In this document: piece by piece, positions 5,464 through 42,236 of the stretch | Layout of the letters: every line of letters begins with the position of its first letter | How positions within the stretch are numbered: position 1 is the stretch's first letter | Source: Paramesorhizobium endophyticum | GTDB lineage: Bacteria > Pseudomonadota > Alphaproteobacteria > Rhizobiales > Rhizobiaceae | Assembly (NCBI RefSeq): GCF_014640615.1 | Contig: NZ_BMHH01000026.1 | Coordinates: forward strand, 1-51,282 | Length of the DNA: 51,282 bases | Direction of reading: 5' to 3' | Translations under genes and position numbers: made by a program | The notes under the pieces: model-generated | The model's input: only the letters and a program-made list of their open reading frames with translations | Told to the model about the DNA's origin: nothing | Databases searched by the model: none

Positions 5464-6180
5464 TTAGGGGCTGTCCGGACTGAATAAATTGAAGTGAGTG
5501 CGCTTTGCGCGCTCTCCGCTTATCATTGGAATGATATTGTAATTTAGGTGATGGTTTTTAGAGGACAATTTTGTCTCATCTGAAAACACGCGATTGCTTA
5601 CCCAATCAGCTCCTAATTTTCCTGCCAAATCAGCGGCAAGCTTCTCGAAATTGGTCCAGTACGGCAACACCTTGGCCGTGATCTCGATCACGAGGCCGGT
5701 ATAAAGTCCCGTCCGTCCGGTGCGGGTGCGGGTGACGATATAGCCGAACCGGATGAGCTCACCGATATAGCGCTGGATCGAGCGTACAGACCGGCTCATG
5801 ATACTTGCGAGCGTGAATTTCGTTGTTTCCGTCCGACCGTGCTTGCCGCATCGGGCGCGGATCACCTGCAGCAAGGCTTTCGCCTGTGGCGTCAGCCTGT
5901 CGTCACGCGCGGCCTCAGTGGACATAGGGTTTGCATATTGACGTGTGGCTTGAGGCGCTTGCCGCTGCCAGCGAGCCGGAGGAGGGCTGGCCTTCCCCTG
6001 GCTGGCTTTGGCACGTTTCACCCTTTCCTCATGAGCGGCGAGATCCGCTTCATATTCTTCGTCGGTGATCCAGCCGTTCCCGACTGCGAACCAATAGTCG
6101 CGGCTATTAAATGCGGGCTTTCGCCAGTTAAGCGGTTGCGGCATCCGAGGCGCCGCCCCGAAACGTAAGATACCATTCAT
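5464..6180 (-). CDS. Winged-helix protein, candidate replication initiator
   Basis: A 238-residue basic protein. The N-terminal part is charged. A helix-turn-helix domain covers about residues 85-160 (LTPQAKALLQVIRARC, TKFTLASIMSRSVRSIQRYIGELIRFGYIVTR), and an Asn- and Ser-rich tail follows. Such domains occur in plasmid replication initiators and in unrelated regulators. The call rests on three points: no other replication gene is visible, the plasmid must have one, and the upstream region is full of inverted repeats. The start at 6180 follows AGGGGAA at about 9 nt. Confidence 0.45.
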   Translation of the reverse strand: MNGILRFGAAPRMPQPLNWRKPAFNSRDYWFAVGNGWITDEEYEADLAAHEERVKRAKASQGKASPPPARWQRQAPQATRQYANPMSTEAARDDRLTPQAKALLQVIRARCGKHGRTETTKFTLASIMSRSVRSIQRYIGELIRFGYIVTRTRTGRTGLYTGLVIEITAKVLPYWTNFEKLAADLAGKLGADWVSNRVFSDETKLSSKNHHLNYNIIPMISGERAKRTHFNLFSPDSP

Positions 6181-7204: not shown

Positions 7205-10200
7205 TCAGAACTGGACCGCCAGGCCGATTTTTCCGGACAAGTCTTTTGTTCGCTCGCCGGAATACTCAACCGAACCATAGGCAGATACGCCTGAATTAAG
7301 ATCGAGCTTTGCCCCGGCCGACACGCGATAGGACATGCCTTGCATGTCGGAAATGCCGTTGAGAGTGTTGACGCCATCCGTGGCCGTGACCTTGTTTTCG
7401 GCAAGGGCCTCGTACTGGAGATCGGCTCTCAGCCATGGGCGCAGAATGACGCCATTCTCGAACACGGTTTCGGTTTCCGCCTTGACGCCAGCCAGCGCCA
7501 TCAGAGAGTCGCCCGAAAGCTGGCTGATGGTTACGCCGAAATTGTCGGTGAAGCCGTCCATGTCCACGTCTTGATAGACGAGCTGGGCAACCGGCGCGAT
7601 CCAGAGGCGATCAGCAAGCCCGGTGTTGACGCGGTAGCGATAGCTTGTCTCGATGCTGGCGATCCAGCCGTCTACATCCGTGGTCCCGCCATGCAAGCCG
7701 CCGGCGGCAAGCGATGCCTCGTTGAACTGATACGCCGCCAGCGCATCGATCCAAAGGCCCTCATCGATCGACTGCCAGTAGCTGGCATAGACGCCTCCAT
7801 GCCCACCCTGCATATCGATATCGATGTGCGGCGTTGTCGCCATGCCAGCGTCAACCGATCCCCAACCACCGAAGACGCCGCCAATGAGCGTACCGGATGG
7901 CAACAGGTTCGAAAGCTCGAAATCCACCCCGGCCTGCACCATCTTGCGGTCGTACTCGGTCTTGACGCCCGGCTCGGGCAAGATTGCGCCCGTGCCGCCG
8001 ATCACGCGGCCCCACGCGACAAGACCGTTTTTCCCAAGCTTGTCCGCTTCGCCCGCGCGTAGCCCGCCGATGCGATAGTAAAGGCCGTCCGCAATGCTGC
8101 GGCCTTGCAGCTGGGCGAGCGAAATGATGTTCGCGTAACCGTCGATGGTAGGCGATACCCATGGCGTCGGTTCCGGCTGCGGCTGGGGTTCCGGTTGAGG
8201 CTGAGGCTTCTCCGGCTGCGGCAGCGGCTGCTGTGGCTCTGGCTGCGGTTCCGGCTGAGGCTGCGGCTTCTCCGGCTCCGGTTCCGGCTTCTCCGGCTCA
8301 GGCTGCGGCTCCGGTTCCGGCTCGGGCTTCTCAGGCTCCGGCCATTGCGTCACGAGCTTATAGGTCTTGTCCGATGCGTCATACGTCCACTGGTAGACGT
8401 ACAGGCCGCCGATGATCAATTCGTCGCTGGTGAAATTGGTCCCATCGGTCAGGCCGTCCACGGTGATTACCGGGATTTTGGTATTGCAGGCCGATGCGCC
8501 ATAAGCCGTCAATTTTACAGCGCTGTGACCGCTGGCATTGCCGCCGATCCGCATATAGTCAGCGGGGCATGTTACGCCATCGAATCCAACATCAGCGGTG
8601 ATGGTCGATCCTTCCTCGCCCGTGTAATTGCCGGTGATGGTCAGCAGATCACGAGCCGCCCCGTTGCTTAGGGAGATGTTGCCACCATTGACCACATCGC
8701 CGGCAATGGTGGAGGTTCCCAACGCGAGTACCTGGCTGTTCGCGTCGATATCCAGTGTGCCGACTGTCAGCGCCCGCGAGGGATCGAGCGCCAGCGCCGA
8801 TTGCTGCAACTCGATCAGTTCCCATTCATCAAGACGAGTTTTCGCGAGGTCCGTGTTCTGGCCGATCAACTGGAGCTGGTCGAAGCCCTGTTCGCCTTCA
8901 GCGTCCGTGCCGCCGTTGATCGCGCCGAAATTAGCCGTGGAGGCGTCAGGCCCCACCATCACCGTGTCGCTGCCACCGCCGAGGTCAACGCTTTCAGCGT
9001 TGGAGGCTTGCTGGATATTCAAGAATTCGTTGCCCGCGCTGCCGGTAATAGTTTTCGCGGAGACATTCCGGATGGCAACCGACGAACTATCGAGCTTCAG
9101 CGTTTCTGTTTGGGTACGCCCTACGATGAGATCGCTACCCCCTGAAATTTCGATGGTTTCGAAATTCTGAATCCGGTTATCCGCAACGACCCCGGATTGC
9201 CCGACCATGGATAAGGTATCATTGTCACCGCCGCCATCGAGCAGGCCAAGCTTGGCATGATTGGCAGAGGCGGTGATGACAAGGCTGTCGTTACCATTCC
9301 CTAGCGCGATCCCGCCCAGCGTCGTCCCTTTTTCAATGATGACGTTTTCCGTGCTATCCGAACCGGCAACACCGACCGTCGCCGTCACATCCCTCAGCGT
9401 GAGGTTTGAATTCGCGACATTGATGATCTGCGTTGCGGTAAGCCCTAGCGTTAACTGGCTGTTTTGGACGTTGAAGGTTTCCCATCCTGCCACTTTATAA
9501 TCTTCAGTGGCCCCCGAAAACCGCAAGAAATTAATCACGTCCTGACCATCACCTCCGTGGAGGCTCGCCCCGGTGATTGTCGCGGCGTCAATGATATACG
9601 CGGTATCATCGCCCGCGCCACCAAAGAAGCCGTATGTGACCGAGCCGTCCTTGAGTACAAAAGTGTCGTCGCCGTCGCCGCCGTTGAAGGAGTAGATCGT
9701 TGCGTTCTTGCCAGAGACCTCGACGGTATCAATCCCGCCCTCGCCGCTCACGGAACCCAAGTCTGCAAGCGATCCTGCTGCGTCCGTGGCTCTGGCTATA
9801 AACGTATCATTGCCATCGCCGCCTAGAACGGAGCCGACTTTGACGCGCGTATTCAGTTTTGCGGTGCCGCCATCCGCTTCGAGCACAATTGTATCATCGC
9901 CACCGGCGAGGTAAATTTGCCCGTTGTTGACAACATCAAGGACGCCGGCAGTGCCGCCAGACTTCGATGAGATGTAGATCGTATCAGCGCCTTCGCCCGT
10001 CCTGATAAGCCCCGTTCCGGAGCTGACGATAACATGCGCGCGGCTTCCACTGCCAGTGGCAGATACTTCGAAGGTCTGCCCCCCGTCAGGACCGGGAGTG
10101 ATATTGTTCGGATAGTGCATACCGGCGCTGATGTTGCTCGCATTGCCGGTGCCCTCGGCGCGCACCGCCGCCGCATCGCCTCCACTTTCTGCAATCACCC

Positions 10201-10759
10201 GCAAATGGGGACCGTAACGGTAATTGTTCGAAAGGGATAGCGAGGCATCAACTATGTTCCCAGCTGCCCCTTGCACTGATGATACAATACTCGCGATCCC
10301 ACCATTTTTTGCGGTGACCGATACGTTATTCGGCCCCACCCCGAAATCAACGGAAGCGGAGTTTCTGTTGTTCGGGACCGTGGCGCGGTCCTCGCGAAGC
10401 AGCGACGAGCGCCCCGCCCCATCCTGAAGAACGCTTACGGTAGCGTCCTGATTACCGAAAATCAGGTTGCGCGAGGCTGTTGTTGATTGCGGCAAAATGA
10501 TGCCATCAACACCTGTGATATTCAGGGTGAGAAGCACTGCGGGGAACTGATAAGAATTGCCGGTGGTTGTGTAGAAAGTGCCGTTCGCGGAACTGTCGCA
10601 ATTGATGATCGAGGCGGAGCTACCTGATGATTGAGGCGAGCAAGCCGCCTGACTGATGCCGGTGCCCGCGAAATAGCTGGCGGCAAGAATTGCCGGAACA
10701 GAGGTCGCGGCTCGAAGCCATTTAGAAGATTTTAGTAAACGCGAGTCTATGCTAGACAT
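7205..10759 (-). CDS. Autotransporter (type V) surface protein
   Basis: About 1184 residues. The start at 10759 follows GAGGAA; a long signal sequence ends near SQAACSPQ. The passenger of roughly 750 residues is a Gly/Asp/Asn-rich repetitive beta structure with RTX-like blocks (GGDGDDTFVLKDG, GGAGDDTAYI, GGDGQDVINF). A Pro/Glu/Gln-rich linker of about 60 residues (coding 8163-8340) follows. The last 280 or so residues are an autotransporter beta-barrel ending in Phe (GLAVQF), as barrel proteins do. The passenger would be exported through the outer membrane, possibly as an adhesin; no catalytic motif is seen. It is flanked by strong hairpins and looks like a self-contained cargo unit. Confidence 0.9.
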   Translation of the reverse strand: MSSIDSRLLKSSKWLRAATSVPAILAASYFAGTGISQAACSPQSSGSSASIINCDSSANGTFYTTTGNSYQFPAVLLTLNITGVDGIILPQSTTASRNLIFGNQDATVSVLQDGAGRSSLLREDRATVPNNRNSASVDFGVGPNNVSVTAKNGGIASIVSSVQGAAGNIVDASLSLSNNYRYGPHLRVIAESGGDAAAVRAEGTGNASNISAGMHYPNNITPGPDGGQTFEVSATGSGSRAHVIVSSGTGLIRTGEGADTIYISSKSGGTAGVLDVVNNGQIYLAGGDDTIVLEADGGTAKLNTRVKVGSVLGGDGNDTFIARATDAAGSLADLGSVSGEGGIDTVEVSGKNATIYSFNGGDGDDTFVLKDGSVTYGFFGGAGDDTAYIIDAATITGASLHGGDGQDVINFLRFSGATEDYKVAGWETFNVQNSQLTLGLTATQIINVANSNLTLRDVTATVGVAGSDSTENVIIEKGTTLGGIALGNGNDSLVITASANHAKLGLLDGGGDNDTLSMVGQSGVVADNRIQNFETIEISGGSDLIVGRTQTETLKLDSSSVAIRNVSAKTITGSAGNEFLNIQQASNAESVDLGGGSDTVMVGPDASTANFGAINGGTDAEGEQGFDQLQLIGQNTDLAKTRLDEWELIELQQSALALDPSRALTVGTLDIDANSQVLALGTSTIAGDVVNGGNISLSNGAARDLLTITGNYTGEEGSTITADVGFDGVTCPADYMRIGGNASGHSAVKLTAYGASACNTKIPVITVDGLTDGTNFTSDELIIGGLYVYQWTYDASDKTYKLVTQWPEPEKPEPEPEPQPEPEKPEPEPEKPQPQPEPQPEPQQPLPQPEKPQPQPEPQPQPEPTPWVSPTIDGYANIISLAQLQGRSIADGLYYRIGGLRAGEADKLGKNGLVAWGRVIGGTGAILPEPGVKTEYDRKMVQAGVDFELSNLLPSGTLIGGVFGGWGSVDAGMATTPHIDIDMQGGHGGVYASYWQSIDEGLWIDALAAYQFNEASLAAGGLHGGTTDVDGWIASIETSYRYRVNTGLADRLWIAPVAQLVYQDVDMDGFTDNFGVTISQLSGDSLMALAGVKAETETVFENGVILRPWLRADLQYEALAENKVTATDGVNTLNGISDMQGMSYRVSAGAKLDLNSGVSAYGSVEYSGERTKDLSGKIGLAVQF

Positions 10760-10816
10760 AAGACGGTTCCTCGTCTGTCTCTGAATTTTGCCGTTCAGGT
10801 GGATTTTAGGAGCCAC

Positions 10817-10844
10817 GGATCGGAGCATTGCAGTGCTCCGATCC
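10817..10844. promoter_or_regulatory. 11-bp hairpin in the autotransporter leader
   Basis: GGATCGGAGCA, loop TTGCAG, TGCTCCGATCC: a perfect stem 58-85 nt upstream of the autotransporter start. The neighbouring hairpin at 10901-10928 has a different stem but the same loop TTGCAG. It could be a leader RNA structure or an operator. Confidence 0.6.
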
Positions 10845-10900
10845 ATCCCTTCGTTCTTGATGAATGGTTGCGGTTGATCGCCTCCTCAGTTCAACGAAGC

Positions 10901-10928
10901 AAAGCCGGCTGTTGCAGCAGCCGGCTTT
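10901..10928. terminator. 11-bp hairpin with TTGCAG loop
   Basis: AAAGCCGGCTG, loop TTGCAG, CAGCCGGCTTT, then TT. It is terminator-like, with only short T runs on either strand. It would end a minus-strand transcript started near 11010, or a plus-strand transcript. Confidence 0.55.
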
Positions 10929-11000
10929 TCGTTATGTGTGATTGGGAGACGCCGCTCGCGCTTGCGGTCGATAGGTGCATTACTCCGCGTCCCCCGGTTC

Positions 11001-11053
11001 ATTCGCCGGGGAGAATATACATGATTAGCAATTTCTCAAGTGAAATTGCTAAT
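11001..11053. promoter_or_regulatory. Shared promoter/leader element with 12-bp palindrome
   Basis: ATTAGCAATTTC (11024-11035), loop TCAAGT, GAAATTGCTAAT (11042-11053) is a perfect palindrome. Next to it is GAGAATATAC (11011-11020), and CCCCGG..CCGGGG lies just before. The same arrangement, with related sequence, is at 25273-25337 upstream of a minus-strand gene. On the minus strand TATATT could be a -10 element. Probably a duplicated regulated promoter; here the minus-strand product downstream is only a hairpin-rich leader. Confidence 0.55.
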
Positions 11054-11554: not shown

Positions 11555-11713
11555 TTAGCTGCTCTTGCTGTACAGAGGGCGCTCGCTTCTCCCCTGCGAT
11601 ACTGAAGATCAAAGCATGGATTGCTTCTGCTTCAGCGGGTGCTTCCCTCCCGCTGACAGGATCGAACACGATATGTTCTGTCTCAATGCCTTGAGTTGAT
11701 CATCGTTCATTAT
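11555..11713 (-). pseudogene. Fusion remnant: MNDDQ gene start joined to another gene's end
   Basis: Bases 11684-11713 are identical to 12718-12747, the MNDDQLKAL start within the 12577-12867 gene. After the match, a different open frame continues to a stop at 11555 (VFDPVSGREAPAEAEAIHAL, ending QQEQLS) and reads like the end of a real protein. The join puts the two parts in different frames, so no full product can be made. It records a deletion or recombination inside the array. Confidence 0.7.
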
Positions 11714-11808
11714 GCGGCTAGAGCCTCGGCCTTAGACATGCGAGGCCAACGGGCAAGGGTAACAAATCCGTTTTTCTCATGATCTGCGACGGTGAGTTCG
11801 ATGCGCAT
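11710..11808 (-). pseudogene. Truncated copy of the 12883-13221 gene
   Basis: Bases 11715-11833 match 13128-13246 at an offset of 1413 with few differences. They encode MRIELTVADHEKNGFVTLAR and a few more residues, stopping after 32 codons. The copy includes the complete upstream junction motif (11809-11834). It shows that array members have been copied together with their junction. Confidence 0.8.
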
Positions 11809-11834
11809 AGCGCGCCTCCGGGCGGTTGTTGGAA
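11809..11834 (-). repeat. Array junction motif (minus strand)
   Basis: Reads TTCCAACAACCGCCCGGAGG on the minus strand, directly after the stop of the 11835 gene's frame boundary and before an ATG. The same or closely related words separate most neighbours in the arrays: 12108-12131, 12312-12336, 12538-12560, 12868-12890, 13222-13248, 13567-13590, 13971-13990, 14165-14183, 14381-14398. In several, the TAA or TAG in the motif is the stop of the upstream gene, and GGAGG is the ribosome-binding site of the next. Confidence 0.8.
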
Positions 11835-12107
11835 TTATTGGGCGGCATCGCCCAAAGCGGAAACAGCCGCGTCAATCTGGCTGTCGAGTTCGTCCATGGC
11901 TTCCATGGCCGTGTCTAAACTGGAAACAGCGTTTTCAGCCGCTGATCCTTTTTCGCCGCTTTGGAAACTTTCAGGCATGTTATTGAAATATTCCTGCTCT
12001 TCGTCGCGTAGCGTCTCGATCTCCCCCTTCAACTCTTCAATCGTGGCCTTCAAGCCTTCAATCTGGTCACTCAGCTTCACGATAGCCTTGCGGCGTTCTT
12101 TGTTCAT
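11835..12107 (-). CDS. Small coiled-coil protein (array member)
   Basis: 90 residues, nearly all helical and charged (MNKERRKAIVKLSDQIEGL, EELKGEIETLRDEEQEYF). It shares a core with the protein at 21773-22138: DE..E, (M/L)P(E/D)SF, then AM..LD..ID..L. The two are probably paralogues of one small accessory family. Followed by the conserved junction. Function unknown. Confidence 0.65.
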   Translation of the reverse strand: MNKERRKAIVKLSDQIEGLKATIEELKGEIETLRDEEQEYFNNMPESFQSGEKGSAAENAVSSLDTAMEAMDELDSQIDAAVSALGDAAQ

Positions 12108-12125
12108 TTTAGCGCGCTCCAGGCG

Positions 12126-12311
12126 TCATTTGGAACTGGAGTCGGCTTTGGCGTCATCAAAGCCTTGCCGATAGGTTGCGCGGCTCCGACTGCCATCATG
12201 GCCGCTACCAAAGGGGTGGCCGTAGTGCGCATCCGAGTATCCAGCGTGATAGTCGGCCCTCTGTTCGGGGGTCCAGTCGGGCTTGGGTTCTGGTCTTGGA
12301 TTCCACGGCAT
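12126..12311 (-). CDS. Small hydrophilic protein (array member)
   Basis: 61 residues, MPWNPRPEPKPDWTPEQRAD and so on, Tyr- and His-rich (YHAGYSDAHYGHPFG), ending SSSK with the stop inside the junction motif. GGAGG precedes the ATG by 5 nt. Not recognised. Confidence 0.6.
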   Translation of the reverse strand: MPWNPRPEPKPDWTPEQRADYHAGYSDAHYGHPFGSGHDGSRSRATYRQGFDDAKADSSSK

Positions 12312-12336
12312 GATTGCCTCCGGGCGGTTGTTGGAA

Positions 12337-12537
12337 TTAACGGATTTCCGATTGGTCGTAGCCGTGGTGCTCGACCAATGACGCGACCATGGCGTCAAAT
12401 GCCATGTCTTTGATGCCTGCTTGGTTTTCGGCGTCGGCCTGCGTGTAAGCGTCGGCCAGCAATTTCCCGGCTTCGCCAAGAATCTGATAAAATCGGCTGC
12501 GCATGGCGTATTTTTCTGCGTAGGTACGTTCGTCCAT
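12337..12537 (-). CDS. Small helical protein (array member)
   Basis: 66 residues, starting MDERTYAEKYAMRSRFYQIL, with an acidic helical middle and an end of HHGYDQSEIR. GGAGAGAG precedes the ATG. The stop TAA is immediately followed by the junction word TTCCAACAACCG. Unknown function. Confidence 0.6.
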   Translation of the reverse strand: MDERTYAEKYAMRSRFYQILGEAGKLLADAYTQADAENQAGIKDMAFDAMVASLVEHHGYDQSEIR

Positions 12538-12576
12538 CGTCTCTCTCCATCCCGGCGGTTTCTGGAATGTCAGTGT

Positions 12577-12867
12577 TCAGTGGGGTCGGGGACCGAAGGC
12601 CAGAGCCTTTGCTTCGGACTTCGCACGACGCAGCGTTTTCATTCCTTCGTCTGTAATCTCGTTCAAGCGTTGGTCAAAAGTCTTTAGCTCACCTTTCAAC
12701 TCTCCAATCGCGCCCTTCAATGCCTTGAGTTGATCATCGTTCATTATTGTGCGCCCCCGTTCGGTTGCGCGCTTGCCTTCGCAGTTGTCGCATAGGTCTT
12801 CATCGTGAGCGCCCGCGTGGCTCTCCCAAAAAGAGCCGCCGCAGCGTTTACAAGTGGATCGCTTCAT
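12577..12867 (-). CDS. Zinc-ribbon and coiled-coil protein (array member)
   Basis: 96 residues. The first 35 form a short zinc-ribbon-like part with CKRC and CDNC. From MNDDQLKALKGAIGELKGEL on, it is a charged coiled coil. A 30-nt piece containing the MNDDQ start is repeated in a remnant at 11684-11713, so the two halves may once have been separate genes. The upstream ATG at 12867 has GGAGG from the junction and is preferred; translation may also start at MNDDQ. Confidence 0.6.
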   Translation of the reverse strand: MKRSTCKRCGGSFWESHAGAHDEDLCDNCEGKRATERGRTIMNDDQLKALKGAIGELKGELKTFDQRLNEITDEGMKTLRRAKSEAKALAFGPRPH

Positions 12868-12882
12868 TGTCCCCTCCGGGAG

Positions 12883-13221
12883 TTATTTGAAAAATCTGCT
12901 GAGGACCGGAACGCGCCTATCTATCGCGTCATCCGGTTCCGGCCTTTCTTCGAGCCAGGTGCGAACCTGATCCGGGGCGAGGCGCATTGCTACTTGCATC
13001 GGCAAGCTACGCTGGCCGGTGTCGTGAAGATCGTACCCATCCATAATATCGAGGATGAAGGTGAATGGGCCTGTCAATCTGTCCGGTTCCATCTCGTCGC
13101 TGATCTCGGCATCGATGGCAGCAACGGCGGCTAGAGTCTCGGCCTTGGACATGCGAGGCCAACGGGCAAGGGTAACAAATCCGTTTTTCTCATGGTCAGC
13201 GACGGTGAGTTCGATGCGCAT
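12883..13221 (-). CDS. Hypothetical soluble protein (array member)
   Basis: 112 residues, MRIELTVADHEKNGFVTLAR, then acidic sequence (AIDAEISDEMEPD) and PFTFILDIMDGYDLHDTGQ. The C-terminal part is Pro- and Arg-rich and ends in RFFK. A truncated copy of its first 32 codons and its junction is at 11710-11833. Unknown function. Confidence 0.65.
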   Translation of the reverse strand: MRIELTVADHEKNGFVTLARWPRMSKAETLAAVAAIDAEISDEMEPDRLTGPFTFILDIMDGYDLHDTGQRSLPMQVAMRLAPDQVRTWLEERPEPDDAIDRRVPVLSRFFK

Positions 13222-13248
13222 AGCGCGCCTCCGGGCGGTTGTTTGAAT

Positions 13249-13566
13249 TTATACGGCGTCTACGTCCGCAATTTCTGTCGACGGCGCCCATATCTCTGGC
13301 CGCCATTCTCGCATGATATCTTCGATTTCGGCGCGATAGGCAGTTGGATATTCAGCCATTCCACGAGCAGCAAGCCACGAGAAGACCTGGGCCATGTCCA
13401 CAGCGATAGTGGAGTCTACACCGAACAAATCCGCAAGATTGAAACCTCCGAGTTTGTCAGCGTTCCACCAAGCAAGAACAAATGCCGCGGCCCTGCCTGA
13501 CTGGCCGGTATCTCCCCGGGCTAGATTAAGAAGCCGCTCAAACGCGGCACGAGTTGCATGATCCAT
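13249..13566 (-). CDS. Conserved hypothetical (array member)
   Basis: 105 residues with AAFERLLNLARGDTGQSGRA, AAFVLAWWNADKLGGF and a WRPEIW end. This DTGQ..AWWNA..GGF layout recalls a small proteobacterial family that I believe is DUF7673, from memory only. No catalytic motif. Flanked by junction motifs on both sides. Confidence 0.65.
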   Translation of the reverse strand: MDHATRAAFERLLNLARGDTGQSGRAAAFVLAWWNADKLGGFNLADLFGVDSTIAVDMAQVFSWLAARGMAEYPTAYRAEIEDIMREWRPEIWAPSTEIADVDAV

Positions 13567-13583
13567 TGTCGTGGCTCCGGGCG

Positions 13584-13970
13584 TTAGTTGGAACTGTTGG
13601 CAAGCGCCGCTTCGTTGGCCTTTTGATATGCCTGAGTGGCATGACCGGCGCGCGCCAGCGCATAGGCGAAACGCTTGGCGTGCTCACCGTTGCAGAAGAA
13701 GGGGTCTTGATAGCTTTCGCCATCCCATGTCGAGGCCTTGAAGATGAAATCACAGCCAGCCTTTTTAGCGTAGTAATCCTCACCACGCGACCAGCTCACC
13801 CCCACAACCTGCCCATTCACCAGTCTTTGCACCTCTTCCTTCGACGTTGGATACTCTGGACGGCTGCTGGCAAAATCTGTGACATGTGCTGCCGCCTCCG
13901 GTCCGAAATAGATCGTTTCCGTCTTCTTTGCGATCTTCTTACCGCAATATCGGCAAAGTGGCTGGCTCAT
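13584..13970 (-). CDS. Zinc-ribbon protein (array member)
   Basis: 128 residues. It starts MSQPLCRYCGKKIAKKTETI (one CxxC), with a second Cys in KKAGCDF and a third in PFFCNGEHA, which could complete a metal site. The C-terminus is helical and ends ANSSN with the stop in the junction motif. May bind nucleic acid; this is inferred from the zinc-ribbon look only. Confidence 0.65.
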   Translation of the reverse strand: MSQPLCRYCGKKIAKKTETIYFGPEAAAHVTDFASSRPEYPTSKEEVQRLVNGQVVGVSWSRGEDYYAKKAGCDFIFKASTWDGESYQDPFFCNGEHAKRFAYALARAGHATQAYQKANEAALANSSN

Positions 13971-13984
13971 CGTCTTTTCCGGCG

Positions 13985-14164
13985 TTAAATGGAAGAATAC
14001 GGATTGGCGGGGCCGAAGCGAACTCCATCCTGCTCAAAAAACCCCAAATAGCCAAGGAGCCATGCGCGATGGACTTCTGAGCCGGCGATAAGTTTGCGTA
14101 GTAAGCGGGACAGGGCTTTGCCTTGATAGCCGTAGAGATAAAATCGCATGTAAATATTGCTCAC
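13985..14164 (-). CDS. Short protein with GTG start (array member)
   Basis: 59 residues read from GTG at 14164: VSNIYMRFYLYGYQGKALSR, then aromatic- and Leu-rich sequence, ending NPYSSI. GGAGG lies 7 nt before the GTG, in the same junction position as for its neighbours; an in-frame ATG is at 14149. It fills what would otherwise be the only gap in the array. Basic and aromatic; unknown function. Confidence 0.6.
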   Translation of the reverse strand: MSNIYMRFYLYGYQGKALSRLLRKLIAGSEVHRAWLLGYLGFFEQDGVRFGPANPYSSI

Positions 14165-14179
14165 GGATTGCCTCCGGGG

Positions 14180-14380
14180 TTATTTGGACTGCGCGTCGAT
14201 ACGAGCGTAAAGCTCGGCGCGGGCGGAATCGAACGCTGCGTCGCCAAGGTGCGAGAACTGCCGCCAGAAGGCAAAGCGTTCTTCGTGGCTCTGACCGATC
14301 CCGGCTAGACGTTCGACCTCGCCTATGGTGGTGCAGCCCCGCGCCGCTTCCGGCTTCTGAATGGTCTTCTGCTTCTGCAT
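14180..14380 (-). CDS. Small protein (array member)
   Basis: 66 residues, MQKQKTIQKPEAARGCTTIG, then helical sequence, ending ARIDAQSK with TCC AAA TAA in the junction motif. GGAGG precedes the ATG. Unknown function. Confidence 0.6.
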   Translation of the reverse strand: MQKQKTIQKPEAARGCTTIGEVERLAGIGQSHEERFAFWRQFSHLGDAAFDSARAELYARIDAQSK

Positions 14381-14394
14381 GACGGCCTCCGGCG

Positions 14395-14586
14395 CTATTT
14401 GGATGGTTTAGGAAGTTTGAAATCCACAAGCCATGAGGGACCGTGGGTATTGCGAAGCCGATGAAGGATTGCCGGTGCGGCCGCGCGCATCCAAAGCTCG
14501 CGCAACTCGGATTTCCACTTGCGACCGTGCTCGGCGGCGAAGTCCGCAATGGCGGCGCTCTGCTCTGGTGTTAATGGTTTATTCAT
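14395..14586 (-). CDS. Small protein (array member)
   Basis: 63 residues, MNKPLTPEQSAAIADFAAEH, then GRKWKSELRELWM and an end of LPKPSK, with TCC AAA TAG in the junction. The start at 14586 follows GGAGG; an upstream in-frame extension has no ribosome-binding site. Helical and basic. Unknown function. Confidence 0.6.
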   Translation of the reverse strand: MNKPLTPEQSAAIADFAAEHGRKWKSELRELWMRAAAPAILHRLRNTHGPSWLVDFKLPKPSK

Positions 14587-14597
14587 GGCGTCCTCCC

Positions 14598-14738
14598 TCA
14601 CCAAGCTTCGTCGTCGGGGTAGCCACCATTGTCCGGCTCGCTTTCCCAATTTTCATGAAAGCCATCTTCGAAGCCCTCTGGATTATTACGCCAGTCGGCG
14701 GGCGGCGCATCGCTTTCAGGTGTAGGTTTCGGGACCAT
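14598..14738 (-). CDS. Short acidic protein, first gene of minus-strand array
   Basis: 46 residues, MVPKPTPESDAPPADWRNNP, very acidic and aromatic towards the end (ENWESEPDNGGYPDDEAW). AGGAGG lies 8 nt before the ATG at 14738. It is the first gene of the minus-strand array and diverges from the recombinase. The acidic character resembles DNA-mimic or inhibitor proteins, but this is only an impression. Confidence 0.5.
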   Translation of the reverse strand: MVPKPTPESDAPPADWRNNPEGFEDGFHENWESEPDNGGYPDDEAW

Positions 14739-14764
14739 TGCTAATTGCCTCCTGTTCTGCCTTG

Positions 14765-14817
14765 CACTATGACATAACATATGACACTATGTCAAACATA
14801 AATGTTATGTCACAGTG
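14765..14817. promoter_or_regulatory. Inverted-repeat site between the divergent arrays
   Basis: CACTATGACATAACAT (14765-14780) and ATGTTATGTCACAGTG (14802-14817) are inverted copies matching at 15 of 16 positions, 21 nt apart. In between is TGACA-CTA-TGTCA (14782-14794). It lies directly before the serine recombinase and between the two arrays. It could be the recombinase's res-type site, its autoregulatory operator, or both. Confidence 0.65.
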
Positions 14818-14830
14818 AGACTTTTTTGGA

Positions 14831-15424
14831 ATGAGGCGCGGATATATACGCTTGTCAAAGGCTGGCCCTTCAATCGATGAGCAGAAACAAGCGCTCAAGA
14901 GTGCCGGAATCGAGGACTTTTCAGAGTATGGGCCGGTGTATGTGGACGAAATCCCTCGGGGGCGGAATGAACCGGCGCTGCCACAACGCGACAATGCAAT
15001 TAGAAGCCTTGAGGCCGGTGACGTGCTGGTGATTGCCAGCGCTGCGCGGCTCGGTTCGTCCGAAGGCGACGTTCTGCAGGCGATGAAAGCAATCGGGGAA
15101 AGAAGCGCCGTCATATATGACGTGAAGACCGGCGAGACGATTGTTTGCCATCCCGACGCTATCAAGGTGTTGGAATATGCACAAAAAGCAGAGAGCGAAA
15201 ACCGAAAAGAGATTGCTCAAAAGATGCGGCGGGCGCGGGAAGCCAGCGGCAGGGTGGGCGGGCCACCAGAAAAGCTTGGCGGGGATCGATTACGCGAGGC
15301 AAAGCGCTTGTGGGAAGAATCGTCGCTTTCAAAAGGTGAGATCGCGAAGAAGTTCGGCGTGACTGTTCGGACGCTTTACCGTCGCCTCGGTGATCGTGGC
15401 GGTAAGCAGTTTGGTTCCAAATAA
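14831..15424 (+). CDS. Serine recombinase (resolvase/invertase family)
   Basis: 197 residues. The N-terminus MRRGYIRLSKAGPSIDEQKQ has the catalytic Ser (Ser9) in the Y-x-R-x-S context. The domain continues with GDVLVIASAARLGSSEGDVL (conserved Arg). A C-terminal helix-turn-helix (SKGEIAKKFGVTVRTLYRRL) is expected to bind the crossover site. Length fits a small resolvase or invertase. It heads the plus-strand array and faces the inverted-repeat site at 14765-14817. It may resolve multimers or rearrange the array. Its end, TCC AAA TAA, is a junction motif. Confidence 0.85.
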   Translation: MRRGYIRLSKAGPSIDEQKQALKSAGIEDFSEYGPVYVDEIPRGRNEPALPQRDNAIRSLEAGDVLVIASAARLGSSEGDVLQAMKAIGERSAVIYDVKTGETIVCHPDAIKVLEYAQKAESENRKEIAQKMRRAREASGRVGGPPEKLGGDRLREAKRLWEESSLSKGEIAKKFGVTVRTLYRRLGDRGGKQFGSK

Positions 15425-15456
15425 GGCACACTTCTGTGCAAGGAGAGGAGAGAACA

Positions 15457-15708
15457 ATGCGACGGAAAACAAACTTCAACGATGTAAAAGAGGCGATCTA
15501 CCTCGGTCGCTGGAAACTGATTGGTCTGCTTCTAGCCGTAGTTGGGCTTTGCTTCGCAATAGCAGGTTATTTTCTATTCCTGATGGGCGGGGATTACCGC
15601 ATTGTATATACCTGCTACGGAATCGTGGTGGCTCTCCTGCTGCTTGCTTGCAGCTACGGCGGTATGAAAATCAAAGACGTTTTATTCGGAAAAATGAGAC
15701 GCGATTAG
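15457..15708 (+). CDS. Small membrane protein (plus-strand array)
   Basis: 83 residues with two membrane segments (LIGLLLAVVGLCFAIAGYFLF and YGIVVALLLLACSYGG). The start at 15457 follows AAGGAGAGGAG. The upstream junction TTCCAAATAAGGC holds the recombinase stop, followed by a GCACA-CTTC-TGTGC hairpin. Unknown function. Confidence 0.6.
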   Translation: MRRKTNFNDVKEAIYLGRWKLIGLLLAVVGLCFAIAGYFLFLMGGDYRIVYTCYGIVVALLLLACSYGGMKIKDVLFGKMRRD

Positions 15709-15745
15709 TGGTCCAACTAAGGCACGGCATAGAGGGAAGAGGGAT

Positions 15746-16006
15746 ATGGCCCTAGTTTTGTACTCGCTGATGTATATTCCAGCCGTCCTGGGCGGGGCAG
15801 GATACATCGCAAATCCATGGGTCATCGTATCCGTGATTTCAGCGTGGATTTGGTCGATTTGGCGAAATAGCGAAAAAGGTGATGTCGATTATAAGCAGCT
15901 CGAGAGCCAGAGCTTCATAAGCCACGACAAAAGCATTCGGAACGCCACGCTTATGCGGCTAGCCACAATCGCATGTGTCTACGGGATAGCCTACCTGTTC
16001 CGTTAG
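15746..16006 (+). CDS. Small membrane protein (plus-strand array)
   Basis: 86 residues. Membrane segments are at about residues 5-35 (SLMYIPAVLGGAGYI, VIVSVISAWIWSIW) and at the C-terminus (LATIACVYGIAYLF). The upstream junction reads TCCAACTAAGGC, with GAGGGAAGAGGG before the ATG. Unknown function. Confidence 0.55.
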   Translation: MALVLYSLMYIPAVLGGAGYIANPWVIVSVISAWIWSIWRNSEKGDVDYKQLESQSFISHDKSIRNATLMRLATIACVYGIAYLFR

Positions 16007-16030
16007 CGTGTTTCCAACAAAGGCGTGACA

Positions 16031-16417
16031 ATGAAAACTAGATACCTTCCTATAGCAGTGTTGTCGCTCGCTTGTGCAATGCCGCTGGGATCTGCGATTG
16101 CGCAAGAACGTAGCGATCAAGGAAAGCAGCAATACGAGGCGATGATGCAATCATTCAGGAACGCACGCGATGCCTGCATTGAATGGGGTGGCGGTAAGAT
16201 TCATGAGGTCAAGGTAAACGAAGACGTTTCGCTCACGGTAAGGCCGCTTTCACCGGAAGGGCTGACATGCGCACTCTTAGAAGACCAAGACAGCATAATG
16301 AATGACGCTTTTAAAAATGGGATTCTTATTGGAGGCATTATTGGTTTTTCCGTTGGTCTCTCTCTGTTGGGCGTAGTGCGGTTCGCCTGGCGGTCCTTGA
16401 AACCAAATTTCCAATAA
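16031..16417 (+). CDS. Exported, C-terminally anchored protein (plus-strand array)
   Basis: 128 residues with a signal peptide (MKTRYLPIAVLSLACAMPLG, cleavage near AIAQE), a periplasmic domain with two Cys, and a C-terminal membrane segment (GGIIGFSVGLSLLGVVRFAW). Upstream junction TTTCCAACAAAGGCGTGACA; its own stop is in TTCCAATAAAGGCG. An in-frame GTG at 16025 is less likely. Unknown function. Confidence 0.6.
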   Translation: MKTRYLPIAVLSLACAMPLGSAIAQERSDQGKQQYEAMMQSFRNARDACIEWGGGKIHEVKVNEDVSLTVRPLSPEGLTCALLEDQDSIMNDAFKNGILIGGIIGFSVGLSLLGVVRFAWRSLKPNFQ

Positions 16418-16441
16418 AGGCGCGAATGAGGAGGCGAGACA

Positions 16442-16693
16442 TTGGAAAGAGAAGAAATCATTGCTCAGGCGCGGGCGCTGTTGTTGGAGGGTGCAGCGCA
16501 AATGGAAGATGCCGAAACCGCTCAAGGAAAGCTACCGGGCGCAGCGAAAGTAAGCCGGGCAGGGCAAATGCTGGTGAACCTGGGCGGTATCGTACTCGCG
16601 CGGGAGGTCCATGCGACACTCGGCGAATTTCAACGAACCGTCGAGCTGCAGTGGTACGGCCTGTCCGATGGCGAAAACACTTGGTTGCCCTGA
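16442..16693 (+). CDS. Small helical protein with TTG start (plus-strand array)
   Basis: 83 residues, starting at TTG 16442 with AGGAGG about 7 nt upstream; no ATG fits. The sequence is helical and acidic at first (EREEIIAQARALLLEGAAQM), then ends QWYGLSDGENTWLP. The junction before it carries the upstream stop. Unknown function. Confidence 0.5.
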   Translation: MEREEIIAQARALLLEGAAQMEDAETAQGKLPGAAKVSRAGQMLVNLGGIVLAREVHATLGEFQRTVELQWYGLSDGENTWLP

Positions 16694-16718
16694 TACGTTT
16701 TCAGAAAAGGGCGTGACG

Positions 16719-16967
16719 ATGGATCAGAACGAAATTGAACAGGCCAAACGCGATCTGCGGAAGGCTGGGAGTCTGTTGAAGGCGGTAGCATCCGACCATC
16801 GCTGGAAGCTGTTTTCTTTGCTTCTTTCGTTGATCGGCTTGGCGGCTGTTATTTTGGCCTTTTTCGTTGAAGATCGACTTGCACAGTTACTGCTCGCGCT
16901 GTTGGGCTTGGCGCTGGGTGCTCTCGCGGCGGGATGCGGTCGCATGGGCGGAATCTGTGAAGTGTGA
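16719..16967 (+). CDS. Small membrane protein, last of plus-strand array
   Basis: 82 residues, MDQNEIEQAKRDLRKAGSLL, then two membrane segments (LFSLLLSLIGLAAVILAFFV and LAQLLLALLGLALGALAAG). The junction upstream reads TTTTCAGAAAAGGGCGTGACG. Its last codons (GRMGGICEV) lie inside the third copy of the 89-nt repeat (16936-17024), so the natural 3' end has been overwritten by the repeat. Confidence 0.55.
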   Translation: MDQNEIEQAKRDLRKAGSLLKAVASDHRWKLFSLLLSLIGLAAVILAFFVEDRLAQLLLALLGLALGALAAGCGRMGGICEV

Positions 16968-17024
16968 ATAGTCGGCGCCGGCGAGCCGGGGCCGACTATA
17001 TGGAAAGTCGCCGGCGTGCCGGCG
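16936..17024. repeat. 89-nt repeat, third copy
   Basis: Matches 90-178 and 20133-20221 with a few substitutions, and keeps both GCCGGC-type palindromes and the TATATGGAAA between them. It lacks the upstream 21-bp hairpin present in the long copies. It begins inside the coding region of the 16719 gene. Confidence 0.85.
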
Positions 17025-17035
17025 GCATTATGGAT

Positions 17036-17136
17036 GGGGTTTTTCAGCCCTTCGGGCCGAAGCGAAGCGGAGCAGGCGGAGGCAGAACGCGCAATCAAAA
17101 AGCGCTGTAGAGATGCCGGAGCCTGTGAAAAACCCC
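17036..17136. other. Long-range inverted repeat in intergenic DNA
   Basis: GGGGTTTTTCA (17036-17046) and TGAAAAACCCC (17126-17136) pair perfectly around 79 nt that include a GCCC-TTC-GGGC hairpin. It may be a structured RNA or terminator between the plus-strand array and the minus-strand gene ending at 17197. No gene is seen in 16968-17196. Confidence 0.4.
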
Positions 17137-17196: not shown

Positions 17197-17616
17197 TCAT
17201 AGTGAATGCCTCTTGGTGGTCAACCACGCTTTCTGCTGGCCGATGCCAAGCCCTTGCATGGGGACGACGGCGCGGCTTCCGGCCCATGCCGCAAGCGGCT
17301 CGCGGTACAGCCGTCCGGCAAGGAAAATCAGGGGGAGGGGGGCCGGTCCAATCTCTGCCTTGATTTGCTCTATCACGCGGTCGCCCCATGCGCGGCGCTC
17401 GATCGCGCGCATGTCGGCAAGTGTGCGCTCATAGGGCTCTATCACCTGGGCGGGGTTCAATAGGCCGTGCTCGGCTGACAGGATGAACCATGGCAGGCCG
17501 GTATCTTCGACATAGGCGCGGGCCTTACGAAACCAGTCGGAAATATAGAGCGAGGCGGCCGGCGCTGCCTCGCTGCGTTTCTGCTTTACGCATGAAACAA
17601 GAAAAATCCCTGTCAT
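17197..17616 (-). CDS. DUF6884-like protein
   Basis: 139 residues beginning MTGIFLVSCVKQKRSEAAPA, followed by SLYISDWFRKARAYVE, WFILSAEHGLLNP and IEPYERTLADM. These features fit the family annotated DUF6884 on phages and plasmids. Conserved Cys, His and Glu suggest an enzyme, but no reaction is known to me. Last gene of the 17197-19895 operon. Confidence 0.7.
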   Translation of the reverse strand: MTGIFLVSCVKQKRSEAAPAASLYISDWFRKARAYVEDTGLPWFILSAEHGLLNPAQVIEPYERTLADMRAIERRAWGDRVIEQIKAEIGPAPLPLIFLAGRLYREPLAAWAGSRAVVPMQGLGIGQQKAWLTTKRHSL

Positions 17617-20967: not shown

Positions 20968-21123
20968 CAATCGTGACCTAGTCGTTATCTGCCGGGGGAA
21001 TGGCATAGGTCACAAAACTCTTGCCTTTTTATGCCACAACGCGAGTTGGGAACTCCACCGGATTTACGCAATCATGACGGGTTTCTCACGTTAAGGTTAA
21101 ACTCTTTCATACAGGCAGATTCA

Positions 21124-40421: not shown

Positions 40422-40955
40422 CTATAGCGTGCGCCGTTTTTCAGGTTTACGGGCCGCGTTCACATGCTCCAGTGTCCGCCTGTGATCATTATCGGTGTTC
40501 TGCGAAGAAATTGCAACATCGGGTCGATATTCATCGCCCCTGACGATTTGCTCCGCGCGCTCGCGAATCTGGTGGGTATCATCACCGGCGGCACGTAAAT
40601 TGGCTTCGGCCGATTCAGCCGCCACTCCAGCTCGGGCGCCAATGGCGCGAAACTGCCTTGCCTTATCCGCGTTATCACGTGCTGTCGCCGGGTCAATGGC
40701 GGTACGCGCAGCGCGCTCATGGGCTTCCGCATTCTCGGCCGCCTGCGCTTGCTGAGCCCTCGCCCGCTCCGCTCCTGCCAGGTCGCGGTCTTTCGTATTT
40801 CCCTCCCCCGCTGAAGCGATAGCATCGATCGCTGGACGCGATTTTTCATCGAACGCCGCCTTGAGTTGCGGATCGCTACGCATGGATTCTGAAATCTTAC
40901 CAACAATTTGCTGATAACGGTCGAGAGAACTTTCCAGTGCTGCTGTCTGCGCCAT
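40422..40955 (-). CDS. Helical protein sharing a module with the relaxase
   Basis: 177 residues, mostly charged and Ala-rich helix. Its start (LESSLDRYQQIVGKISESM, then R.DPQLKAAFD) is nearly the same as residues 646-674 of the relaxase and similar to the end of the 40974-42236 protein. The rest (ERARAQQAQAAENAEAHERA) looks like coiled coil. It may assemble with the relaxase, or be a fragment split off from it. Confidence 0.6.
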   Translation of the reverse strand: MAQTAALESSLDRYQQIVGKISESMRSDPQLKAAFDEKSRPAIDAIASAGEGNTKDRDLAGAERARAQQAQAAENAEAHERAARTAIDPATARDNADKARQFRAIGARAGVAAESAEANLRAAGDDTHQIRERAEQIVRGDEYRPDVAISSQNTDNDHRRTLEHVNAARKPEKRRTL

Positions 40956-40973
40956 TCGAATTGCCCTTTCGGT

Positions 40974-42236
40974 TTAACGTGAGCGGCCTTGCGCTTGCGG
41001 CCGCGTATGTACTTGCTCTTGGTTCACTCCGATTTGAGCCTCAGCATTTTGCGAATTTTGTGCGGGCTTCTGCGCCTGGGTTTCCCTCGATGCCGCGACC
41101 GATAGCGATTTCACATGCGCTTGCATTTTTTCGTCAAAGGCCGCTTTCATTTGCGGATCACCACGCATCGAATCTGAAATCTTCTCAACGACTTTGACAA
41201 TCCGTTGCATCACATTGGAAAAACCGGAAACCTGCTGAACAGGAGCGTTCATGTCATTGGCTTCATCGGAAAACTTAGCTCCTTCTTGGTTCGTAGCAAG
41301 GAGCTCATGACGGCGCTCGCTCTCTTTTCGCGTCTCAATTGTAAAACCCTGATCCTTTATGGCTTTCACAACATGTTCGTAGGGAGTGTCCTCAGTAAAA
41401 TTATCATGGAATTCGCCCACGGCATCGAGCGTGGTGTCCATAACGGTCCAGCCTGCAAATTCCCTATCCCCATCATCATTGTACGCATGTTCTTTTTCGA
41501 TCCTTGCATACTTTTCCGCTATCGGGCCAGTCTGTGAATTCGTATTCTGATTGATCGAACTTTCATTTTCCCTATGCCCGCGCTCAATGGTTTCTATCGC
41601 CACCTGGAGTTCAGGAATACCCTGAGCTTCATTCCGCAAAATTTGATTTCCGGACACGGCGAGGAGGGCGGCTTGGCTGGTGGCAGATTGCTTCTCAGCC
41701 TGATAGCGCGTGGGATCGTCTCCACGCTCGATTGTTTCTGCTATGGCTATGTCGGCCTGTGCTATTTTATCTAGTGCCCGATGGGCCGCTGCGGCTTGTT
41801 CACGACCATATTTTGCCACGTCGTCTTTCGCAAAATTATCTACCCAATAATAGTCAGCTGCTTCCAGCTTTGGCTCGTTCTGAATTTCTGATTTTGCATT
41901 GGCAAGAGCCTTTTGCAAATGTGCTATGTCTGAGCGGATTTCTGGCGCTGCATCTTGTAAGCGGATATCCAGGGTATTCAATCCTTCCGCGTAATAATTC
42001 AAGAGCACACGATCGGTCATTGCTTCTTGAGGGATTGGTAAACCACTCGAGCCAGCAGCAATCATTTGTTCCTTAGGGCTGATAGAGCTTGCTGGTAACG
42101 ACATATGTTCTGCATCACCTTCAATGCCCCAGACTTCCTTCACAGCGCGGCCTAAACGTTGCCCTTGCTCCATGTCCCGATGCGTTATGGCTTCTGCCTG
42201 CATGTCAACTGCTTGGTTCTCTTGCTGCCCGACCAC
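40974..42236 (-). CDS. Large helical accessory protein with shared module
   Basis: 420 residues from GTG 42236 (GGAGAG upstream). Hydrophilic, rich in Glu, Ala and Gln (MQAEAITHRDMEQGQRLGRA, ALDKIAQADIAIAETIERGD). Near the C-terminus it has VVEKISDSMRGDPQMKAAFD, the module also found in the relaxase and the 40422 protein. It may be an auxiliary transfer protein or a substrate of the secretion system. No known domain recognised. Confidence 0.55.
   Translation of the reverse strand: MVGQQENQAVDMQAEAITHRDMEQGQRLGRAVKEVWGIEGDAEHMSLPASSISPKEQMIAAGSSGLPIPQEAMTDRVLLNYYAEGLNTLDIRLQDAAPEIRSDIAHLQKALANAKSEIQNEPKLEAADYYWVDNFAKDDVAKYGREQAAAAHRALDKIAQADIAIAETIERGDDPTRYQAEKQSATSQAALLAVSGNQILRNEAQGIPELQVAIETIERGHRENESSINQNTNSQTGPIAEKYARIEKEHAYNDDGDREFAGWTVMDTTLDAVGEFHDNFTEDTPYEHVVKAIKDQGFTIETRKESERRHELLATNQEGAKFSDEANDMNAPVQQVSGFSNVMQRIVKVVEKISDSMRGDPQMKAAFDEKMQAHVKSLSVAASRETQAQKPAQNSQNAEAQIGVNQEQVHTRPQAQGRSR

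Follow-up and report, generated by a model that had tools for sequence, protein, structure and literature searches.

The question raised by the locus described here is what the short sequence word that separates its small genes does, and whether these genes behave as cassettes. The locus lies on a stretch of 51,282 nucleotides of Paramesorhizobium endophyticum (contig NZ_BMHH01000026.1 of assembly GCF_014640615.1), which was analyzed as a whole and is called the window below. Within its 11.8-17.0 kb region small genes are arranged in two divergent rows that start near 14.8 kb: a minus row of 11 genes, with one truncated copy at its distal end, and a plus row of 6 genes, headed by that of a resolvase-like protein. 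Another four arrays resemble this locus in build, with a minus row followed by a plus row whose first gene is of the recombinase family. They were identified in Agrobacterium tumefaciens (pAtG3_79c), Xanthobacter dioxanivorans YN2, Xanthobacter sp. NM-59 and Paracoccus sp. TOH (p2). The five arrays are common in layout and are found on at least two kinds of backbone. Gene duplication in the NM-59 array, and gene gain or loss in one Agrobacterium pair, are bounded by words. We favour, with modest confidence and on sequence comparison, the reading that the words would be stop/start expression joints doubling as exchange points, so that the array genes may act as cassettes.

Junction words in five arrays

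A junction was scored as carrying the word when TTCCAA, with at most one mismatch, was present within 45 nt upstream of the start. This analysis revealed a word at 14 of the 16 array junctions of the window versus 5 of 27 control starts, hand-picked from longer open reading frames (ORFs) of the window (Fisher p = 1.2e-5), which confirms the divergent arrays with a junction word described in an earlier note on this DNA. The exceptions are the junctions 14598/14586 (word absent) and 16693/16719 (two mismatches). The minus word TTCCAANNAACNCCNGGAGG, with up to three mismatches, has 8 matches in the window (0.37 expected), 7 of them within 11815-13593, and the plus word has 9 (1.92 expected), of which 5 are plus-arm junctions; these counts were reached by none of 100 shuffles for either pattern. 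The word recurs as the earlier note had said, but many window words carry one to three mismatches, and to speak of "the same word" throughout was generous. In the whole 4.9-Mb genome the 19-base minus form, with up to two mismatches, was found 13 times (this array, 6; elsewhere in the window, 1; other contigs, 6), compared with 8 times for a reversed control.

Chance similarity or composition bias might be invoked on account of single window words with up to three mismatches and of the pAtG3_79c count, which alone is not significant. Its probability is negligible in view of the shuffles, the junction counts and the 18 word matches (1.24 expected) in the X. dioxanivorans array (L025), and word counts rule it out for the window, X. 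dioxanivorans and NM-59.

The word consists of a TTCCAA-type core, a stop codon and then a GGAG-like ribosome-binding sequence (a form like TTCCAANTRA plus GGAG). The TCCAA-type core, the stop and the ribosome-binding site recur across arrays, and the words vary between arms and lineages. Strict scoring of the asymmetric word with a start and a Shine-Dalgarno sequence downstream gave 81 words over the five arrays: 45 in NM-59, 18 in X. dioxanivorans, 11 in the window, 4 in pAtG3_79c and 3 in Paracoccus. The stop within the word ends the upstream reading frame in 51 of the 81 (p = 5e-8 against one third); for the scored words of the window the figure is 6 of 11, a correction to the earlier note.

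The orientation of the words follows transcription, and their forms are specific to the arms. The plus arms of NM-59 and X. dioxanivorans read TTCCAACTGAGGAG, and the minus arms of NM-59 read TTCCAACTGAGGGAC, as does, less regularly, that of X. dioxanivorans. In NM-59 the six bases past the core have an identity of 0.73 and 0.65 inside the arms versus 0.45 between them, and in X. dioxanivorans of 0.76 and 0.62 versus 0.52; the window and pAtG3_79c have, by eye, other arm-specific tails. As the word sets were selected by core match, part of the core conservation follows from the selection itself. Neither folding (mean z 0.01 over the 81 words, 4% below -2, mononucleotide shuffles) nor a dyad was found in the words, TTGGA occurring inside the 60-nt window of only 3 of the 81. 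An attC-like fold was rejected on the same folding score, and an Rfam RNA was rejected as the identity of the word.

Exact TTCCAANTGAGG has 20 matches in the NM-59 genome, all 20 inside the array, and 12 of the 30 further matches with one mismatch are located there as well (reversed control, 22 in all). Between the arrays 13 protein matches were found (approximately 8 independent genes), all of which connect rows of like strand, minus to minus or plus to plus. The X. dioxanivorans and NM-59 arrays are related elements, and one 38-bp inverted DNA match between them spans little except the word. In the Paracoccus array, where few words were detected, the plus row is broken by one minus gene. The X. 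dioxanivorans record is marked circular and carries a ResT/TelK-type telomere resolvase gene (L025, 2951-4099), so that this plasmid may be linear.

When 397 genomes of the order were scanned for exact words, 8 and 2 genomes matched, with at most two matches each; the window's own genome has one exact match only, hence such scans cannot exclude degenerate arrays. Among the matches listed for viral contigs there was one exact match per contig, or none, and no array was seen (one of these scans took in 41 stretches). No word was seen at a Bordetella locus (L277) with one gene in common. At distant recombinase loci (L300-L320), for which TTCCAA was only counted, none reaches the 3.4-fold excess of NM-59, the values for L305, L306 and L317 being 2.0 to 2.5-fold.

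Gene duplication, gain and loss at the words

The NM-59 array was compared with itself by blastn, which yielded eight same-direction duplications of at least 150 bp (16 segments, 32 ends). A word is located at 19 of the 32 ends, whereas random placement gave a mean of 2.18 and a maximum of 9 in 5000 trials, and 6 of the 16 segments have a word at both ends (null expectation, 0.08). One word, at 21093, was entered manually on account of its three mismatches. The array showed no duplication of 60 bp or more that was inverted or between arms.

Another case is the pair composed of A. tumefaciens pAtG3_79c (L021) and pAt13-2099-1-2b (L022), which share 93.6% identity over 9.2 kb, up to a word. The latter plasmid is devoid of one gene of the former, and its sequence resumes as that behind the next word. 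The word at this position is a hybrid, with the left part of one word and the right part of the next, and the switch lies inside TCCAAC, in only 6 bp of identity. After 13 bp pAt13-2099-1-2b diverges, and it retains, further along, a 59-bp remnant of another array gene. The missing gene was found in 10 of 18 matching records besides pAtG3_79c (H115-H120, H125-H127, H129). In all six Agrobacterium pAt megaplasmids inspected (L339-L344) the gene is placed behind higBA and preceded by a word (the annotation of some copies is shorter), upstream homology ends at the word, and no recombinase is annotated within the 6-kb flanks inspected. The gene thus keeps its word outside a recombinase-bearing array. 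For two window genes, seven homologues outside arrays show no word within 50 nt of either end.

The earlier note had proposed mobile cassettes, against which conservation as a block, or breakpoints away from the words, would speak. In NM-59 and in the pAtG3_79c/pAt13-2099-1-2b pair the outcome favours cassettes. Support for the proposal comes from relatives only, namely these two cases and, in part, the one gene of the six pAt loci.

The central protein and the gene content of the arrays

The central proteins of the five arrays are of two types, 23% identical, which occupy the same place, so the word is kept with two different central proteins. Both show sequence homology with small serine recombinases. 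The first type (X. dioxanivorans, NM-59 and pAtG3_79c) forms one clade with 74-82% identity, and its nearest PDB entry is 4m6f, labelled DNA-invertase, which we take to be Gin of phage Mu. The second type comprises the window protein, its homologue in the Paracoccus array (L321; 58% identical) and those of L322-L324, where words are absent at the starts inspected. R45, D67 and R71 of gamma-delta resolvase are required for catalysis. The window family differs from the small serine recombinases at the aligned positions, which are replaced in all five members (L, A and S, respectively, in the window protein). The pAtG3_79c protein has leucine at the place of the nucleophilic serine of 4m6f, whereas the catalytic motifs of the X. 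dioxanivorans and NM-59 proteins are intact; the latter belong to related elements and count as nearly one case. In total, three of the five arrays have a central protein without catalytic residues. The resolvase-like protein of the window is probably a regulator rather than a catalyst.

Upstream of the recombinase genes of pAtG3_79c and NM-59 there are four copies of TTCCAR with identical 13/29/13-bp spacing, and two exact copies plus two variants (13/31/13) precede that of X. dioxanivorans. This regularity suggests an operator or a recombination site. Upstream of the window-type protein TGACA-type palindromes are found, and TGACA-type motifs also precede the L321-L324 homologues; no TTCCAR is present there on the recombinase strand of the window, only one TTCCAAAAAA on the other strand (14822-14831). 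The suggestion that the central serine recombinase moves the genes was consequently not upheld for the window, given a protein without the catalytic positions, the TGACA palindromes and words that have neither an inverted partner nor a fold.

The first clade is not represented in the window genome (best match 1.5e-40), and no relative of the window recombinase was found in the genome contigs collection; its family was found neither in viral contigs nor, at E 1e-15, in phage records. Six viral loci carry relatives (36-47%) of the Xanthobacter recombinase. Three loci have a close recombinase (at least 74% identity), and words are present in all three. The close clade was detected in 2 of 248 genomes of the NM-59 family (E 1e-70), namely NM-59 and one matching the X. 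dioxanivorans plasmid coordinates, in 0 of 385 genomes of the class (E 1e-70) and in 0 of 297 of the family (E 1e-60), although an empty answer alone is not proof of absence.

Two replicons carry recombinase-family genes in duplicate. In Paracoccus sp. TOH p2 a second one (L321, 2954-3532) is located close to the first, and the two share a weak inverted similarity, upstream region included. In Agrobacterium deltaense pEL101-131 (L324) the recombinase homologue and its small neighbours occur twice, in inverted order (8394-10560 and 14877-17047).

Clear Pfam matches among 18 window proteins are limited to DUF6884, DUF7673 and the resolvase. Matches to five PHROG families, the DNA invertase family among them, score below 1e-10. 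The function of most array genes is not assignable by Pfam, which gave one Fic and one GIY-YIG match among 30 NM-59 cassette proteins. One of these 30 cassettes, at 13902-14792 of the NM-59 array (L332), is 90% identical in DNA to another, 6 kb apart, at 7728-8612. The DUF6884 gene adjoins the plus row in the window (17197-17616) and in pAtG3_79c (12281-12700), on opposite strands. Directly beside the window array there is, by eye, an autotransporter-like ORF of 1213 aa with proline/glutamate repeats (7205-10846). Further away, a relaxase-like ORF (42301-45003 with 40422-42236) apparently contains a long segment twice (DAVTLTVTIAGEG.../DAVTLNVTIDGGT...), and neighbouring ORFs carry segments like its YQQIVGKISESMR stretch (both by eye). 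The features of the arrays are listed in Table 1.

Table 1. Location of array features in the window and in the related records.
Record	Feature	Position	Strand	Remarks
Window	minus arm, 11 small genes	11835..14738	-	starts 14738, 14586, 14380, 14164 (or 14149), 13970, 13566, 13221, 12867, 12537, 12311, 12107
Window	plus arm beyond recombinase homologue, 5 small genes	15457..16967	+	starts 15457, 15746, 16031, 16442, 16719
Window	resolvase-like protein	14831..15424	+	PF00239 and HTH_7 matches; probable regulator
Window	palindromic site TGACATAACAT...ATGTTATGTCA between both arms	14770..14812	none	read by eye
Window	word ahead of truncated gene (start 11808)	11815..11834	-	24 bp identical to 12316-12339
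Window	word ahead of gene 11835-12107	12116..12135	-	gives stop TCC AAA TGA
Window	word ahead of gene 12126-12311	12317..12336	-	pattern match
Window	word ahead of gene 12337-12537	12548..12567	-	pattern match, 3 mismatches
Window	word ahead of gene 12577-12867	12873..12892	-	pattern match
Window	word ahead of gene 12883-13221	13228..13247	-	end of 123-bp duplication at most 2 bp from word start
Window	word ahead of gene 13249-13566	13574..13593	-	pattern match
Window	word TTCCATTTAACGCCGGAA ahead of gene 13584-13970	13977..13994	-	read from sequence
Window	word GTCCAAATAACCCCGGAGG ahead of gene 13985-14164	14171..14189	-	read from sequence
Window	word ATCCAAATAGCGCCGGAGG ahead of gene 14180-14380	14386..14404	-	read from sequence
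Window	plus-arm word	15415..15431	+	gives stop of recombinase homologue (TCC AAA TAA)
Window	plus-arm word ahead of 15746	15711..15727	+	
Window	plus-arm word ahead of 16031	16012..16028	+	
Window	plus-arm word ahead of 16442	16409..16425	+	
Window	degenerate plus-arm word ahead of 16719	16700..16716	+	
Window	scrambled array end	11683..11836	-	copy of 13127-13249 (96%) fused to copy of 12717-12747 (100%)
L021	Agrobacterium tumefaciens pAtG3_79c			weaker array
L021	TTCCAR repeat region	10902-11004		
L025/W01	Xanthobacter dioxanivorans YN2 plasmid unnamed3			encodes telomere resolvase (protelomerase plasmid)
L025	TTCCAR repeat region	10906-11015		
L299/X299	Xanthobacter sp. NM-59			array about 25 kb
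L299	TTCCAR repeat region	5890-6001		
L321	Paracoccus sp. TOH p2			weaker array

Known systems and competing readings

Integron cassettes form rows of unrelated small genes that have their junction in common and are added, copied and lost. The arrays resemble them in this build, but have no folded attC-like site, a serine Resolvase-family protein and two divergent arms. That this is not an integron, as previously stated, is borne out by the array protein (PF00239/HTH_7) and the lack of an attC-like fold; no search for IntI was made in the rest of the genome. The stoperators of phage L5 are asymmetric junction sites that point in the direction of transcription, with extra copies near the promoter. 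The array words are similarly oriented, and some arrays have central copies, but the window departs from the stoperator pattern, as the recombinase strand ahead of its resolvase-like gene has no TTCCAR.

The PeSL elements of T4-like phages combine an early promoter with a stem-loop. The array words differ in showing no stem-loop signal and in being plasmid-borne. As far as the excerpted source goes, PeSL elements, which are said to mediate gene shuffling, are the closest in this behaviour, as repeated intergenic elements with genes shuffled between relatives (PMC4503421). The closest in anatomy are the SAS and ESAS elements of cluster K mycobacteriophages, described in the excerpted text of PMC3203893 as an asymmetric word with GGAG directly upstream of many unrelated starts, mostly in one orientation, sometimes with the upstream stop inside, and rare in the host chromosome. 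An asymmetric word with a ribosome-binding site ahead of unrelated starts is shared with the arrays. SAS are discussed there in terms of translation initiation and possible binding, and regulatory sequences in L5 and further phages of cluster A are mentioned beside them (PMC3203893). The SAS sequence GGGATAGGAGCCC is unrelated to the array word, so the arrays do not carry cluster K SAS proper, and those excerpts do not mention arm-specific forms, a central resolvase-like gene or word-to-word duplication for SAS (PMC3203893). Given the similar anatomy of SAS and the shuffling ascribed to PeSL, the statement that no system of this form had been described was too strong. No description of the junction word itself was found in the literature searched, and a paper on linear plasmids of Rhizobiaceae (PMC13293297) does not contain "recombinase", "intergenic" or "cassette" in its text.

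It could be argued that the words are regulatory or translational signals only (a coupled stop and ribosome-binding site, or stoperator-like sites), and that changes fall at gene boundaries simply because broken genes are selected against. The stop and GGAG parts of the word, its orientation with transcription and the recurrence of the core upstream of the recombinase in three arrays agree with this; we nevertheless find it rather unlikely, since the seven non-array homologues have no word, the arm-specific forms suggest copying within an arm and the hybrid word of pAt13-2099-1-2b resembles a direct record of word-to-word joining. The same hybrid, with its switch in 6 bp of identity, could also be the work of a serine recombinase that reads TTCCAA upstream of its own gene as well as in all words, and that would insert, excise and duplicate cassettes, the NM-59 and X. 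dioxanivorans arrays being active and the enzymes of the window, Paracoccus sp. TOH and pAtG3_79c decayed or replaced. The regularly spaced TTCCAR of three arrays, the words at all three loci with a close recombinase, and the fact that the arrays with intact motifs, though related, are the largest and richest in words (45 and 18 scored) point the same way. Small serine recombinases, however, act on inverted half-sites. The words contain no dyad and hardly ever TTGGA, three of the five central proteins have no catalytic residues, the word is kept with two recombinase types, no TTCCAR precedes the window type on the recombinase strand (one TTCCAAAAAA being on the opposite strand), and the word-flanked gene of the six pAt loci has no recombinase annotated nearby. 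This reading is quite improbable, and so is the view that the arrays constitute a second gene-capture platform, in which a small serine recombinase would treat lone TTCCAA half-sites as double-stranded junctions and assemble two divergent rows of expression-ready cassettes. If they did, this would be an integron analogue without folded sites, and the window a descendant in which the recombinase turned regulator while words and cassettes were retained.

We thus prefer words that would serve as joints and exchange points at once. The locus would be a divergent operon pair of small accessory genes, several of phage type. A gene with a word on each side could be dropped in, copied or lost with the translation of its neighbours intact, and since such a gene is movable without harm to them, the words would persist both as expression joints and as recombination points that leave a working product. 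Exchange may proceed via the short shared word, by recombination functions of the host or the element. The resolvase-like protein heading the plus arm may be, in this plasmid, a DNA-binding regulator of the divergent promoters, and the word is perhaps also a protein site.

Several observations weigh against this preference. Of the 32 duplication ends of NM-59, 13 are away from words, and some of the 32 depend on one another, since three of the eight pairs involve a single gene family. The 123-bp duplication of the window has a word at one end and a scrambled joint at the other, and only one clean single-gene indel was found. In four of the six pAt loci (L341-L344) downstream homology runs past the word, to varying extents, and the pAt copies keep the word outside an array, contrary to the pattern of the seven other non-array homologues. 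Owing to tight gene packing, "at a word" is nearly "at a gene boundary", and selection for whole genes alone would also put breakpoints at words. The TTCCAR clusters upstream of the recombinase in three arrays are unexplained by a pure joint. The plasmid collection contains no close relative of the window array (15 records match, and the best covers 6%). Few words pass strict scoring in pAtG3_79c (4) and Paracoccus (3), and the short word form of the former (7 matches, 3.3 expected) was reached by 12 of 200 shuffles, which is not significant, so that this array rests on the junction reading and shared genes.

In our best reading, the joint-and-exchange words on alphaproteobacterial plasmids are a variant of a kind already known from phages (SAS, PeSL). 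They would provide a concrete case, from Alphaproteobacteria and not from T4-like or mycobacterial phages, of plasmids swapping small accessory genes singly, with operons intact. As the words would mark cassette borders, they may help to detect unknown accessory genes and define their limits, and the locus points to a resolvase-like family, with catalysis apparently lost, that heads such operons.

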